The position numbers and the translations under genes were made by a program. Below the pieces are notes generated by a model that saw only the letters and a program-made list of their open reading frames with translations, made no database searches and had not been told where the DNA came from. Below are positions 9,778 through 31,198 of a stretch of DNA of 34,380 nt, piece after piece. This stretch comes from Dehalococcoidia bacterium (GTDB lineage: Bacteria; Chloroflexota; Dehalococcoidia; Lucifugimonadales; Lucifugimonadaceae), in the NCBI GenBank assembly GCA_009693115.1, contig SHXW01000025.1:1-34380 (forward strand), written 5' to 3'. Numbering within the stretch: the stretch's first letter is position 1; every line of letters begins with the position of its first letter.

Positions 9778-9813
9778 TCCCCTCTCCCATGAGGACAGGG
9801 GTTGTGGTGTGGG
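9778..9813. repeat. Family A palindromic repeat
   Basis: An imperfect CCCCTCTCCC..GGACAGGGG hairpin followed by the TTGTGGTGTGGG tail, in the 3' region of the VWA gene. It is recognisably the same element as at 264 and 19038. Confidence 0.65.
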
Positions 9814-9863
9814 CATCATCTGGCGCTCCACATTTTTGCCGTCCGGCGTTTTCGTTAAGCAAG

Positions 9864-19037: not shown

Positions 19038-19073
19038 CCCCCTCTCCCACGGGGAGAGGGCTGAGGTGGTGGG
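19038..19073. repeat. Family A palindromic repeat between pyrB and pyrC
   Basis: CCCCTCTCCC-AC-GGGGAGAGGG with tail CTGAGGTGGTGGG fills most of the 114-base gap between pyrB and pyrC. There is no T-run, so it should not terminate the operon transcript; a role as mRNA stabiliser is possible but unproven. Confidence 0.75.
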
Positions 19074-19103
19074 CACTTCCAACCTCCGGCAGGAGGCCTC
19101 AAC

Positions 19104-26903: not shown

Positions 26904-27899
26904 CTAGGCCTTGCGCAGGTGCTGCCTCGCCTCCGGGTTAACGACGCGGTTGGGCCAGTCGCCACGGAGTACCGCCGCTGCCTGGTGCGATGCCACCTTC
27001 ATGGCCCAGTCAAGCGACAGCGTAGACTCTCCTGCTGCGTGCGGCGTTGCGATCACATTCGTCAAGGACAAAAGCGGGTTCTTCGGGTCCGTCGGTTCCT
27101 CCTCGAACACATCCAGCCCCGCTCCTGCGATCCAGCCTTCCTTGAGGGCGCGGTATAGCGCTTTCTCATCGTGGACGCCGCCGCGGCAGCAGTTAACGAA
27201 AAAGGCGGATTTCTTCATGGCCCGGAACTGTTTTTCGCTCATCATGTGGTGCGTGTTCTTGTTGTGCGGCACCTGAATAGAGACATAGTCGGAATCGCCG
27301 AGCAGGGCTTCAAGCGAAAATACGCGCTCCACCTGGTACTCGCGGAACACCCAGTCCTCGGCTAGTGGGTCGTACGCCTTTACGATGAGGCCGAACGGCT
27401 GGAGGCGCTTCGCAAGTGACCGCCCGATCGCTCCCAGACCGATTAGCCCGGCCACCTCTCCATCGAGTGGGCCTATCGGCCGGCCCGCGGGCCTGTCCCA
27501 CACGCCCGAGCGCATCGCGCGGTCGTACAGGACGATCTTGCGGTTCAGGCCCAGGATCATGGCAGCGGCGTGGTTCGCCACTTCCCAGTTGCAGATGTAG
27601 GCCGTGTTTGTGACCATAATCCCGGCCTTGGCCGCCGCCTCAACGTCAATGCGGTCGAAACCGTGCCCGAATGAGCAGATGGCCTTTGCCTTGTCCATCG
27701 CGGCGATCAGCTGTGCGTCTACTGCGCCGGCCATCGCCATCACGACATCTGCGCCCTTCACGGCCTCGATGGCCTCGCCTGGGCTGGACACGGCGACCTT
27801 GTCTATTTGTACGTCCAGCCCTTCAAAGGCCGACATGTCGAGTTCGTAGTTGAAGATTCCCTTTGGTGGCACGAGCCACGCGACGCGTCGTTTTGGCAT
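26904..27899 (-). CDS. D-isomer specific 2-hydroxyacid dehydrogenase
   Basis: A 331-residue NAD-dependent dehydrogenase. The nucleotide motif is GLIGLGAIGRSLAKRL with the acidic strand end KAYDPL. The catalytic residues lie in NCCRGGVHDEKAL (Arg), LDVFEEEP (Glu) and VIATPHAAGES (His). The N-terminal substrate domain is complete, with FGHGFDRIDVEAA matching the SxGxGxDxID block. Members act on glycerate, lactate, phosphoglycerate or similar acids; the substrate here is not determinable. The ATG at 27897-27899 has an AAAGGT site. The gene is convergent with the amidase. Confidence 0.9.
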   Translation of the reverse strand: MPKRRVAWLVPPKGIFNYELDMSAFEGLDVQIDKVAVSSPGEAIEAVKGADVVMAMAGAVDAQLIAAMDKAKAICSFGHGFDRIDVEAAAKAGIMVTNTAYICNWEVANHAAAMILGLNRKIVLYDRAMRSGVWDRPAGRPIGPLDGEVAGLIGLGAIGRSLAKRLQPFGLIVKAYDPLAEDWVFREYQVERVFSLEALLGDSDYVSIQVPHNKNTHHMMSEKQFRAMKKSAFFVNCCRGGVHDEKALYRALKEGWIAGAGLDVFEEEPTDPKNPLLSLTNVIATPHAAGESTLSLDWAMKVASHQAAAVLRGDWPNRVVNPEARQHLRKA

Positions 27900-27978
27900 T
27901 TCTGTAACCTTTCAATGTGCGGGCATGGACGAATGTTGGGCGTGTGTGCGGAAGTCTGTGTGAGCAACCGTAACCGAT

Positions 27979-28005
27979 GTCATTCTGAGCGCAGCGAAGA
28001 ATCCC
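27979..28005 (+). repeat. Family B repeat (GTCATTCTGAGCGCAGCGAAG type)
   Basis: The clearest copy of the family. On the minus strand it supplies the final codons and stop of the broken GIY-YIG frame (DSSLRSE then TGA). An inverted copy lies at 28458. Confidence 0.75.
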
Positions 28006-28341
28006 ATCCGACGGGTTCCTCAGCCTGATCGAGTCCCCAGTCCTGCGCGATGTCTCTGAAATTCGGGTTGGTCTCCTTGATGAGAGCTATTTTCTTCGAG
28101 CGAAGCCACCCTTTGATCCGCTTCTCGCTTGTAATCGCCGCATTTACATCGGTCGTAGTGTCATACCACACCAGCCTGTGGACATCGTACCGCCCGGTGA
28201 ACTTGCTGTGCCCGTCCCGGAGCGGTGCTGCACGAGCCCGAATTCCAGGTTGTTCGTAACGCCTGTGTACAACGTCCCCTTGCGGTTCATCAGCATGTAA
28301 ACGAAGAATGCGCGCTGTTCGTGCATGCCCAGACGGTACAC
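27980..28341 (-). pseudogene. GIY-YIG endonuclease-like gene broken by a frameshift
   Basis: Two overlapping minus-strand frames together make one GIY-YIG domain. The first, from the ATG at 28341, gives HEQRAFFVYMLMNRKGTLYTGVTNNLE, the GIY-YIG core (here VYM..YTG), and LVQHRSG. The second gives HSKFTGRYDVHRLVWYD, then AAITSEKRIKGWLRSKKIALI and NPNFRDIAQDWG, the normal remainder. The switch lies around the GGGACGGGCACAGC stretch at about 28210-28225 and would be repaired by one extra base. The C-terminus, DQAEEPVGWDSSLRSE, comes from a family B repeat that also supplies the stop codon. The intact family resembles small stand-alone UPF0213-like nucleases of unknown role. A base-calling error in the G-rich stretch could also explain the break. 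Confidence 0.75.
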
Positions 28342-28365
28342 GGTTGGCCTGCCAAAACTTCACCC

Positions 28366-28423
28366 GATGCTATTTTGAGTGAAGTGCGGCTCACGGAACG
28401 AAGAATCCCGTTGCGTGAGCCGC
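28366..28423. repeat. Interrupted family B repeat with a 10-bp inverted repeat
   Basis: TATTTTGAGTGAAG and GAAGAATCCCG, normally almost adjacent in family B, are here split by about 15 bases. GCGGCTCACG (28386-28395) and CGTGAGCCGC (28414-28423) form perfect 10-bp arms around the second half. It looks like one small element within another. Confidence 0.55.
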
Positions 28424-28457
28424 GAACTGACGCTCGGGCAGAACGCCGCACTCAGCG

Positions 28458-28483
28458 GGGTTCTTCGCTTCGCTCAGAATGAC
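28458..28483 (-). repeat. Family B repeat, inverted relative to 27979
   Basis: GGGTTCTTCGCTTCGCTCAG followed by AATGAC is the reverse complement of the family B consensus. With the copy at 27979 it brackets the broken GIY-YIG gene as an inverted pair. Confidence 0.75.
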
Positions 28484-28514
28484 AACGGCGCGGCTCAAAT
28501 CGCACCGTGCGCCT

Positions 28515-29909
28515 CTACCCCCGGCTGAACTCCGAGACCACCTTCCAGTCTTCAGGCCGCATGCTGTTGTACGTGTAGTAACAGTAGCGTGTTGCTCCCT
28601 GCGACTGCATCTCCGCCAGTACGCCTCGCAACTCGCTAGACGTCATCCACCCCAGGTTGAAGTGTTCCAGGCCCACAAACGGCACAAACCTGTCAACGCC
28701 TCCCACGGCCGAGATCATCTTGCGCGTCTGGTCTCGCACTGTCGTCTCGTACCAGGACTTCGTCGCCTCCTTGCCGTAGGCCGAAGGCGGGTAATCGGAC
28801 GGCATCGCATAGTCGAAAGCCGCCGAGAACCAGCGGCAGGCCTGTTCCTCGGATAACCCGTTGTTCCAGTCAACAATCGTCGAAACCCAGTGCGCAGCCG
28901 TGTCACGGATGCCGGCGACAGCCGTCCACCAGTACTCCTTAGGCAGTTGGAAGTCAGTGAACGTCCGCTCCCGCCGGAGGTTGTGGCCGTTCATGATCGT
29001 CATGGCGGGCACCCGCGACGACGTGCCAACCTTGATGCCGGGCACCCGTTTCCTGATCTCCCCGATTGTCGAGCGCAGTGACCATTCGACCACCGCCTGC
29101 TTGTACTTCAGCCAGTCCGCCACCGCCGGGTCCTCGGTCCACCACATGTACGCCGACCCGCCTCTCGACTGGTTTGTCACGAAGTCGTCCACGTATGCAG
29201 GCGTCAGCGACTTCAGCCGCTGCACGAACCTGTCCCGGCCCTCGATCACGCGCTCCGTCGTCAGTCCCACAGACTTGGCGAAACTGCGCTGGTGCGGGTC
29301 GTCGAACTGCTCGACTGCGATATCGTCCCGCGATCCCGGCTTGATGTCCCACTTGAAGTCAGGCCCGTCCAGCACGACAGCCTCGAAGTACGGGAAGTTC
29401 GCCGCCATGTCCTGGATGCGCGCTCCCGTATAGACCGCAGTTTCAGGGTCGCACACGCTCACTGCCGGGGGGGTGGGCCGGCCCGTGCCTGTGCCACCAA
29501 TACGGTGATAGCCCTTGTCGTCCATGACCCACAGCTTGAAGCCGCGCGACTTCGCCTTTTCGAGAGCGCTGTGCAGCCTCTTCGCCTGGTCCTGCACAGA
29601 GTCAGGCATCTCAGGAGGGGACCACACCTTGAAGTCCTGATAAAGCGACGCATTGGGCTTGAACGCGCCCACAGGCATGCCCTTCGCGTCCCTGCCGCCC
29701 GCGGCCTTGATCGTCCTCGGGTTCACGTCCTCTCCCCTGAGCATGGCCGGCGCGGAAGCCCCGCCGGACTTGTCATAGACCGCGAGCCACTGAACTGCGA
29801 CCTCGTTGATCCCCGCCTCTTTGAGTTCGTCCCAGAAACCGGGATCATCAAATACGGCGAGAGGCGGCCGGACGAGCATCACCGGCTTCAACGGTTGTCT
29901 TGCTGCCAT
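28515..29909 (-). CDS. Conserved-looking protein of unknown function, possible TIM-barrel hydrolase
   Basis: I do not recognise this 464-residue protein. It has no signal peptide or membrane segment. The alternation of strands and helices, with blocks KPVMLVRPPLAVFDD, FWDELKEAGINEVAVQWLAVYD, KSRGFKLWVMDDKGYHRIGG, YFEAVVLDGPDFKWDIKPG and GVDRFVPFVGLEHFNLGWM, suggests a TIM-barrel like those of glycoside hydrolases, with acidic residues at strand ends. It is rich in Trp and Tyr, which also fits carbohydrate binding, but this is inference from texture only. The ATG at 29907-29909 has a GGAGG site nine bases upstream, and codon use looks like its neighbours, so it is a real gene. The amidohydrolase at 30287 is divergent from it across a repeat-filled gap. 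Confidence 0.8.
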   Translation of the reverse strand: MAARQPLKPVMLVRPPLAVFDDPGFWDELKEAGINEVAVQWLAVYDKSGGASAPAMLRGEDVNPRTIKAAGGRDAKGMPVGAFKPNASLYQDFKVWSPPEMPDSVQDQAKRLHSALEKAKSRGFKLWVMDDKGYHRIGGTGTGRPTPPAVSVCDPETAVYTGARIQDMAANFPYFEAVVLDGPDFKWDIKPGSRDDIAVEQFDDPHQRSFAKSVGLTTERVIEGRDRFVQRLKSLTPAYVDDFVTNQSRGGSAYMWWTEDPAVADWLKYKQAVVEWSLRSTIGEIRKRVPGIKVGTSSRVPAMTIMNGHNLRRERTFTDFQLPKEYWWTAVAGIRDTAAHWVSTIVDWNNGLSEEQACRWFSAAFDYAMPSDYPPSAYGKEATKSWYETTVRDQTRKMISAVGGVDRFVPFVGLEHFNLGWMTSSELRGVLAEMQSQGATRYCYYTYNSMRPEDWKVVSEFSRG

Positions 29910-30286
29910 GTAAGTGAACCTCCGAACGCATCCTTCAGGGATTGCGCCCGGCGTAAGTTACGCCCGCATCCGCTCGCAAGCAACAGCGCTCTTGTCATCC
30001 TGAGCGTAGCGAAGGACGTGTTCCCGCTCGCCCTGAGCCCTGAGGCTCTCGAAGGGTCGATGGTCCCCGCTTCTTGCGACCCGCTGGTCGTTGTCATTCT
30101 GATGCGAAGCCGAAGAATCCCGTTTTCGCCTGCCTCGCTGCGCTGTAGACTTCCGCCGCGATACTCCCTCTTCCTCGGGTGCCCTTTGGGCGAGGGCGAG
30201 GGTGACGGAGAAGCCTCGCCCCGAAACTACACCCCTCGTACTCCCTAGCCTTCCTTCAAATTCCTTTTCCAGGCGGAGCAGCACTC
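29910..30286. repeat. Repeat cluster filling the divergent gap (three family B copies and one family A)
   Basis: Family B copies lie at 29994-30018 (GTCATCCTGAGCGTAGCGAA), 30031-30063 (CCCTGAGCCCTGAGGCTCTC, then GAAGGGTCGATGG) and 30093-30122 (GTCATTCTGATGCGAAGCCG, then AAGAATCCCG). A family A-like unit, CCCTTTGGGCGAGGGCGAGGG, covers about 30182-30202. All B copies point the same way. Promoters for both flanking genes should also lie here but I cannot single them out. Confidence 0.65.
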
Positions 30287-31198
30287 ATGCAATTCATTGA
30301 CACGCACCACCACCTCTGGGACCTGGAAAACAACTCCTACCCGTGGCTCAAGAGAGACGTCGGACATTTCGCCGGTGACTACTCGAAAATCCGCCGCTCC
30401 TACCTCATCTCCCACTTCCTGGCCGACGCCGCCACGCTCCCGAAAGACTGGATCCTCGTGAAGTCCGTCCACGTGCAGGCCGAATGGGATCACGAGAACG
30501 ACCCCGTCGGCGAGACTGCGTGGCTCCAGAAGACCGCCGACTCACCTGGCTCGAAGGGCAAGCCGAGCGGTATCGTCGCCTTCGCTGACCTCGCTGAACC
30601 CCTTGTTGAAGACACTCTGGAGCGGCACGCAAAGCACAAGAACTGGCGCGGTATCCGCCACATGCTCAACCACTCGCAGGACAACCCGCGACTGAACTTC
30701 ACGCCTCGGTCAGACCTGATGATGGACAAGCAGTGGCGCGCCGGATACCGACTTCTGGCGAAGTTCAACGGTTCCTTTGATTTGCAAATCTGGCCGTGGC
30801 AGCTTGAAATGGCGGCGAGGCTCACCGGCGACATCCCGGAGGTCCGCGTCGTACTCAACCACACCGGCCTGCCCTATGCGAGCGACGCCGCGGCGATGCG
30901 CCAGTGGCGCGATGGCATGAAGGCTCTGGCGGCCCGCACGCACGTCTCGGCCAAGATCTCGGCCCTCGGCATGGCACACCGCGGCTGGACGATAGATTCG
31001 ATCAGGCCACTCGTAGAGGAAACCATAGACATCTTTGGCGCAGACCGGTGCATGTTCGCGTCCAACTTCCCTGTGGACTCGATCACGTCCAGCTACGCGC
31101 AAATCTGGCACGCCTACGACGAGATCACATCCCGCCTGCCTGCCCCAGACCGTCAGAAGCTCTTCCACGACAACGCCGTGAAGTATTACAGGCTATGA
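30287..31198 (+). CDS. Amidohydrolase family protein (lactonase-like TIM barrel)
   Basis: A 303-residue amidohydrolase-2 type protein. It opens MQFIDTHHHLWD, with the HxH metal motif at residues 7-9. Further metal or active-site blocks are VKSVHVQAEWD, WRGIRHMLNHS, LQIWPWQL, VVLNHTGLP and CMFASNFPVDS (catalytic aspartate). The family includes sugar lactonases (L-fuconolactonase type) and decarboxylases; the HLWD opening and SNFPVD ending favour lactonase-like members, but the substrate is unknown. The ATG at 30287 has a GGAG nine to ten bases upstream. The enzyme is cytoplasmic. The divergent 464-residue protein may act in the same pathway, but nothing in the sequence proves it. Confidence 0.88.
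   Translation: MQFIDTHHHLWDLENNSYPWLKRDVGHFAGDYSKIRRSYLISHFLADAATLPKDWILVKSVHVQAEWDHENDPVGETAWLQKTADSPGSKGKPSGIVAFADLAEPLVEDTLERHAKHKNWRGIRHMLNHSQDNPRLNFTPRSDLMMDKQWRAGYRLLAKFNGSFDLQIWPWQLEMAARLTGDIPEVRVVLNHTGLPYASDAAAMRQWRDGMKALAARTHVSAKISALGMAHRGWTIDSIRPLVEETIDIFGADRCMFASNFPVDSITSSYAQIWHAYDEITSRLPAPDRQKLFHDNAVKYYRL

Follow-up and report, generated by a model that had tools for sequence, protein, structure and literature searches.

Why does a small nuclease gene of a Dehalococcoidia bacterium end inside a dispersed hairpin repeat, with an inverted copy of that repeat on its other side? The window, i.e. the whole stretch of 34,380 nucleotides analyzed here, is contig C22 of a 2.0-Mb genome assembled in 40 contigs (G000; other G numbers designate other genomes, L numbers loci). 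Its minus strand carries a GIY-YIG gene that is split over two frames, with the frame change near position 28208. The N-terminal part of the domain lies in an ORF of 65 aa (28341-28144; PF01541 positions 2-35, E 3e-4) and the C-terminal part in an ORF of 127 aa that ends in the repeat (28363-27980; PF01541 positions 38-76, E 0.096). Taken singly, neither half reaches Pfam's cut-off for PF01541; with closer models the C-terminal half is clear (E 1.7e-8 and 2.1e-19). When the ORF translations were followed by hand, ...QHRSGTG was found to stop at 28210 in one frame and SKFTGRYD... to begin at 28207 in a different one, which places a small indel near 28208 and bears out the claim of an earlier note on this DNA that a frameshift splits the domain. 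It is unlikely, in our judgment, that the frame change is an assembly error in an intact gene: the assembly in 40 contigs and the otherwise conserved state of both domain halves would fit such an error, but broken GIY-YIG copies are frequent among relatives, and the position aligned by eye with the invariant Arg25 of the relatives' alignment is also changed, to Gly, in the window protein, possibly a second lesion of the gene. A known structured RNA at the locus was ruled out, with 0 Rfam matches at gathering score in 27400-30500.

The repeat, here termed family B (GTCATTCTGAGCG), follows the plan GTCA, stem-loop, TC. One unit (27979-28005, plus strand) faces the gene at its 3' end and a second one, found by repeat search (28457-28483, minus strand), faces it from the 5' side; the inverted arms (27974-28005 and 28457-28488) comprise 32 nt with 91% complementarity and are the first of 23 inverted pairs listed for the window, so that the inverted copy described in the note is indeed present. 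With at most one mismatch, there are three family B copies in the window versus 0.05 expected, and 31 copies in the 2.0-Mb genome versus 1 for the reversed pattern. As the note had stated, the gene's last codons and stop, GAT TCT TCG CTG CGC TCA GAA TGA (28003-27980, minus strand, DSSLRSE), lie within the repeat. The proposed role of the repeat as a gene-ending cassette thus holds for the window gene; as a general rule it was rejected, the stop codon being inside the downstream unit in only 22 of 157 open genes. The right arm (28457-28483) is at the same time the outer end of a REPIN-like element of about 120 nt with two inverted ends (28365-28486), alignable along its length with three similar elements elsewhere in the genome (L094, L095, L097) that have their inverted partners at +107. 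The inner inverted end of the window element is degenerate (about 28370-28408); it is visible in the element alignment and was missed by the 3-mismatch scan. Most of the 31 scanned family B copies have no partner unit at such spacing. Two further family-B-like copies in direct orientation (29994-30018 and 30093-30121, plus strand) adjoin no GIY-YIG gene. A different dispersed repeat (CCCCTCTCCC...GAGAGGG...TGGG) occurs in the window at 264-300, 9779-9815, and 19039-19075.

PF01541 scored above cut-off for two genes of the same genome, a 652-aa frame that is presumably UvrC and an intact small gene (C11:5906-6124). Among the matches listed, the search with closer models added the window gene and a 34-codon fragment (C4:1301-1402, L091), which is 71% identical to the C11 gene and represents a third, degraded copy. 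Inverted repeats of another family (GCGACCCTCATYCCGACCGGAG...) enclose the C11 gene; at up to 2 mismatches there are 18 copies of this family, whereas the reversed pattern gave 2, and some of the 18 coincide with family-B-like copies. The ORF of the C11 gene likewise ends ...LRSE inside the repeat. The family B nuclease of this genome is broken, while a second, intact nuclease lies between repeats of a different family. Since the C11 gene, too, is bracketed by repeats and ends in LRSE, GIY-YIG genes were surveyed more widely.

Hairpin repeats around GIY-YIG genes in other genomes

The survey of the order covered 149 genomes, with flanks taken for 30 loci and 60 further stretches among the matches listed. 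GIY-YIG matches were present in 64 of the 149 genomes, with up to 7 per genome, and at least 22 of the matches listed contain in-frame stops. Repeats could be scored for 91 of 94 genes, three with flanks below 150 nt being left out; the best inverted repeat across the gene scored 25 or higher in 56 of these 91, versus 14 of 540 cross-locus and 5 of 170 shifted controls. A second set resulted from a pattern scan of genome contigs with seven proteins, 80 of the 535 relatives listed being kept; for the seven queries the repeats had already been seen beforehand, and the loci of this many-phyla set were picked by protein alone. It includes Chloroflexi, several classes of Proteobacteria, Elusimicrobia, Nitrospirota, Planctomycetota, and others at 64-78% protein identity. 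Here, inverted scores of at least 25 were obtained for 48 of 77 loci (49 of 78 if L185, whose score is an artefact of N positions, is counted) versus 17 of 265 shifted controls, L194 and L196 being left out for short flanks. In a separate phylum sample of 301 genomes, from which the own-genome locus L259 was left out, the figure was 14 of 28, and a control unit was found at 0 of 29 loci.

Despite their different sequences, most of the repeats follow a single plan (GTCA, stem-loop, TC), and both copies usually point at the gene. In the many-phyla set, where units were counted at 78 of the 80 loci (two with long N runs left out), inward GTC-hairpin units reached a density of 2.99 per kb up to 300 nt from the gene, versus 0.073 per kb at distances above 1 kb on the same contigs; with each of seven other seed triplets, 0 or 1 inward unit was obtained near the gene, and the summary range for control triplets in the survey sets was 0 to 2. 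At least one unit within 250 nt was found for 56 of 91 order genes, 70 of 78 many-phyla loci, and 26 of 29 phylum-sample loci, and units on both sides for 37 of 91, 49 of 78, and 13 of 29, respectively. Speaking against regular bracketing, 35 of the 91 order genes are without any unit within 250 nt.

Could repeats that generally favor intergenic gaps merely share these gaps with GIY-YIG genes? The dispersed nature of the repeats, with 31 copies in the window's genome, and the strong direct repeats that also cross the genes (25 of 91 order genes, 33 of 78 many-phyla loci) would be in line with such a coincidence, yet we regard it as hardly credible in view of the 40-fold enrichment near the gene relative to distant parts of the same contigs, the low counts in the shifted controls, the preference for inward units (138 inward versus 46 outward within 300 nt), and the mutual resemblance of one gene's two repeats, which also track the protein (see below). 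Chance as the cause of the bracketing was rejected on the basis of expected-count, cross-locus, shifted, and triplet controls. The association of small GIY-YIG genes with GTCA-hairpin repeats is well supported. A lack of any such association in other genomes, which according to the note would have spoken against a link between the gene and the repeats, was observed neither in the order nor in the many-phyla and phylum sets. The associative part of that link stands, in that repeats of this plan regularly enclose the genes; a spread of the repeats through the nuclease is a step that we infer.

The stem of the repeat is conserved in structure. In 242 copies chosen by the anchors GTCAY...RTC alone, and including related and identical ones, the six inner stem positions pair in 74-90% versus 39-80% after shuffling, and at five of these positions each of the four Watson-Crick types occurs; stems are thus kept by compensatory changes. 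Three loci are common to the two locus sets that entered the unit and stem counts (L128/L043, L183/L062, L141/L047). In DNA folding against 200 shuffles each, GTCATTCCGGC was matched by 0 of 200 and GTCATTCTGAAC by 3 of 200 shuffled sequences; the other four of the six hairpins tested, including both family B copies, folded no better than their shuffles (54 to 87 of 200). Family B is built as stem-GA-GC-loop-GC-GA-stem. In DNA, tandem G.A pairs and GNA loops have unusual stability, which the folding program may undervalue.

Some individual arrangements may be added. At both L034 (G050:C47) and L049 (G060:C106), a pair of related GIY-YIG genes forms a close tandem; the genes of L034 are each bracketed by inverted repeats (scores 29 and 32), those of L049 have weaker inverted repeats (23) and strong direct ones. 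On plasmid p3 of Azospirillum lipoferum (L277), a GIY-YIG gene separates sufB from sufC, and the inward units upstream and downstream of it are identical.

Repeat sequence in relation to nuclease sequence

To compare repeats with proteins, we used 75 open genes with a unit on both sides, leaving out three between-set duplicates, short matches, genes with stops, and genes lacking two-sided units. Repeat similarity was 0.84 between the upstream and downstream repeats of one gene versus 0.45 between different genes, and protein identity predicted repeat similarity (Mantel rho 0.752, 0 of 999). Pairs across the two sets with at least 60% protein identity share repeats (0.66; 382 pairs, the many-phyla set including some Chloroflexota), whereas pairs from the same order with less than 50% identity do not (0.27; 227 pairs). 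A single genome may harbor more than one nuclease, each with its own repeat; G029, G038, G050, and G071 contain two such pairs each. The repeat sequence thus follows the nuclease rather than the host, although co-inheritance of gene and repeats as one block could produce the same tracking and mimic recognition.

A related picture emerged for the distribution of one repeat type, GTCATTCCSGC...GAATC. Of 15 genomes whose nuclease is of the matching type (112 bits or more), 14 contain it, compared with 9 of 49 where all GIY-YIG matches are of other types and 8 of 85 without a match, the last group counting against the cassette explanation given below. The 15 genomes with the matching nuclease contain 952 of 1180 copies. 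Tallied by hand at genus level, co-occurrence amounted to 11 of 11 versus 10 of 55; Fisher values for the genome counts overstate independence because the genomes are related. G089 has 497 exact copies in 2.4 Mb and one matching nuclease gene.

The note had also asked for intact relatives flanked by family B copies, and two were found. The best-scoring relative of the window's C-terminal half among the loci compared, L246 (54.5% over 55 residues), is an intact gene from another genome of the class; its upstream unit GTCATTCTGAGCGTAGCGAAGAATC is family B and its downstream unit a variant. A lower-ranked relative, L028, is an open gene that carries GTCATTCTGAGCGAAGCGAAGAATC, likewise family B. 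L265, which ranks second (60% over 55 residues), lacks a unit both upstream and downstream, and further relatives have related yet different hairpins. Overall, the window protein shows 45-60% identity to other loci.

Gene blocks, empty sites, and a candidate mechanism

In the window, the bracketed gene lies between a D-2-hydroxyacid dehydrogenase gene (26904-27899) and a gene for a protein of 464 aa without Pfam or NCBIfam match (28515-29909), both on the minus strand. The 464-aa protein has matches in 12 of 60 genomes searched, its own genome included. G001 belongs to the same family; there, both flanking genes have homologues (67% and 48% protein identity), which are neighbors 122 nt apart versus 615 nt in the window. 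The difference comes near the 505 nt that separate the outer ends of the repeats. The gap in G001 is not otherwise alignable and contains a half unit, GTCATTCCGAGCG; judged from gene order and spacing, we take this locus to be an empty site. Of the 12 relative loci with the 464-aa gene, G001 is the only one with the dehydrogenase beside it, the 11 others having none in the stretch (L245 was left out); this includes G002, the nearest by the 464-aa gene (71%), with no dehydrogenase in the adjoining stretch. Putative empty sites are thus present, but their flanks have diverged so that the exact insertion site is hidden.

Further comparisons come from other genomes. In G029, a 713-nt block consisting of gene and repeats parts two stretches that are 25 nt apart in G009; at the same site, G055 has the gene in opposite orientation, and G037, G049, and G019 have no gene in the compared stretch. 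In 138 kb of alignments between G029 and G037, six of nine size differences of at least 40 nt contain a unit, with the extra sequence always in G037. One of these is a clean unit-bearing segment of 124 nt with ends outside the hairpin; no end rule common to the six unit-bearing cases was seen. Sequence similar to the CCCCTCTCCC...GAGAGGG...TGGG repeat is also present at G029/G037 differences. In four Rhodanobacter genomes and in Dyella, the locus is kept at one site and is therefore not always mobile.

We consider it probable, at roughly three in four, that 27979-28486 represents, in decayed form, a widespread nuclease-repeat cassette in which the nuclease would recognize and cut its own repeat and gene and repeats would be mobile as a block. 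What was observed, namely the bracketing with its general occurrence and preferred orientation, the conservation of the stem, the way in which repeats track their nuclease, and the presence or absence of gene blocks and repeat segments, suggests recognition of each repeat by its own nuclease and possible joint movement of gene and repeats. In the intact cassette, two inward copies of GTCA-[stem-loop]-TC would enclose the gene for a GIY-YIG nuclease that is small (mostly 90-120 aa) and has a single domain. Each nuclease is envisaged to recognize the hairpin of its own repeat family, most likely on single-stranded DNA as arising during replication, transformation, or repair, and to cut it, probably as single-stranded DNA, as is reported for Ssn of Neisseria. 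If exposed single strands were cut at the repeats and host repair then copied, deleted, or inverted the segment, the gene plus repeats could be gained, lost, or flipped as one block. Many repeat-only copies across the genome, including the inverted pairs of about 120 nt, would arise as by-products; such dispersed repeats and pairs may be regarded as nuclease substrates and non-autonomous derivatives. The chemistry of GIY-YIG enzymes is hydrolytic, which makes end-joining in the manner of a transposase unlikely.

Alternatively, the nuclease could be an enzyme retained by the host, for which dispersed repeats serve as landmarks, e.g. in DNA uptake or recombination control, while the repeats multiply by other means. 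The single site occupied in Rhodanobacter and Dyella would suit this explanation, as would the tie of Ssn to natural transformation reported for Neisseria. We find it somewhat doubtful, though deserving serious consideration, given that the genes in the order are patchy, multi-copy, and often broken (64 of 149 genomes, up to 7 each, at least 22 with in-frame stops), that gene blocks are present, absent, or inverted at one site, and that similar nucleases occur with similar repeats across many phyla. Carriage of the gene by phages was also considered and was rejected after a tblastn search of 50,697 phage records with the protein of L017, representing one clade, gave no match.

If the cassette reading is extended to all lineages, the cassettes would form a mobile-element superfamily across phyla in which a hydrolytic GIY-YIG single-strand nuclease, rather than a transposase, spreads its own gene together with GTCA-hairpin repeats, each lineage reading its own hairpin. 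This generalization is tentative, and we would give it somewhat less than an even chance. Should it be true, GIY-YIG genes would be the source from which many of the widespread GTCATTC...GAATC repeats derive as non-autonomous elements, a counterpart of the RAYT/REPIN relationship. Many bacterial genomes contain scattered repeats of this plan, which are readable as protein tails; a nuclease family that changes with its repeat offers a testable source for them, and the repeats a route by which genes may acquire new C-termini. The 75 open genes with two-sided units amount to a natural table of nuclease-hairpin pairs.

Relation to known repeat-enzyme pairs

The layout described here invites comparison with REP sequences and RAYT (TnpA_REP) tyrosine transposases, where the enzyme gene lies beside the repeats and the REP head is GTAG. 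If the repeats were REPs or REPINs mobilized by a RAYT, the GIY-YIG gene would be a passenger. A head followed by a palindrome and paired inverted elements of about 120 nt do resemble REPs and REPINs; on the other hand, the gene regularly found between the repeats is the GIY-YIG gene, and a profile search of 40 genomes for Y1_Tnp (PF01797) matched 2, with none in G000, G009, G019, or G089, the last being devoid of it despite its 497 repeat copies. Mobilization by RAYT is thus very improbable in general and was rejected for the window's lineage, for which G000 has no Y1_Tnp. The systems differ in the enzyme, a GIY-YIG protein instead of a Y1 tyrosine transposase, and in the head, GTCA here and GTAG in REPs. 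They have in common a short palindromic unit with a fixed head that is dispersed in the genome and inverted pairs of about 100 nt (PMC3116915). Both also have a dedicated enzyme gene alongside the repeats. REPIN-like inverted pairs at fixed spacing are present in L094, L095, and L097 and degenerate in the window.

That site-specific cutting can drive the spread of a gene is known from GIY-YIG homing endonucleases and GIY-YIG genes of mobile elements (PMC1564403), which have the catalytic domain in common with the window family; homing enzymes cut the site that lacks the insert, whereas the presumed sites of the present family flank the gene. No intron, intein, or added DNA-binding domain was seen in the window family. 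The closest solved sequences are UPF0213 proteins (PDB 1zg2, E 3.5e-9; 1ywl, E 1.2e-5), for which we know of no repeat association. In an alignment of 28 relatives, Y5, Y15, R25, H29, and N81 are invariant and E62 is conserved in at least 90%; we take these residues to have catalytic roles. The relatives are small single-domain GIY-YIG proteins with conserved Y5, Y15, R25, H29, and N81, which does not apply to the split window copy. In the survey, cognate repeats were found dispersed in the genome and also around the gene, the latter except for the 35 of 91 order genes mentioned above.

A literature search in a limited collection, in part confined to best matches, returned no paper linking GIY-YIG genes with such repeats. 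A GIY-YIG nuclease paired with a repeat is probably already known in kind, with the window copy as a broken new member, and the wider reading as a mobile element may be the new part. The precedent is Ssn of Neisseria, a GIY-YIG nuclease that reportedly cuts single-stranded DNA at the dispersed repeat NTS and affects transformation. It resembles the present family in being a small single-domain GIY-YIG protein linked with a dispersed hairpin repeat, and differs from the window copy, which is broken and has another repeat sequence. The homologue that we found in Neisseria gonorrhoeae, presumably Ssn itself, is 61% identical over 90 aa to the Chloroflexota member L017 and surrounded by GTCATTCCC-type hairpin units. 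Its inward units are at least 164 nt off and the unit nearest the gene end points outward, whereas in the window an inward unit supplies the gene end. The Neisseria layout thus fits the cassette in kind, though not in detail. The record concerned (NZ_CP119142.1, L276), 2.17 Mb in size, is labeled a plasmid and presumably represents the chromosome.
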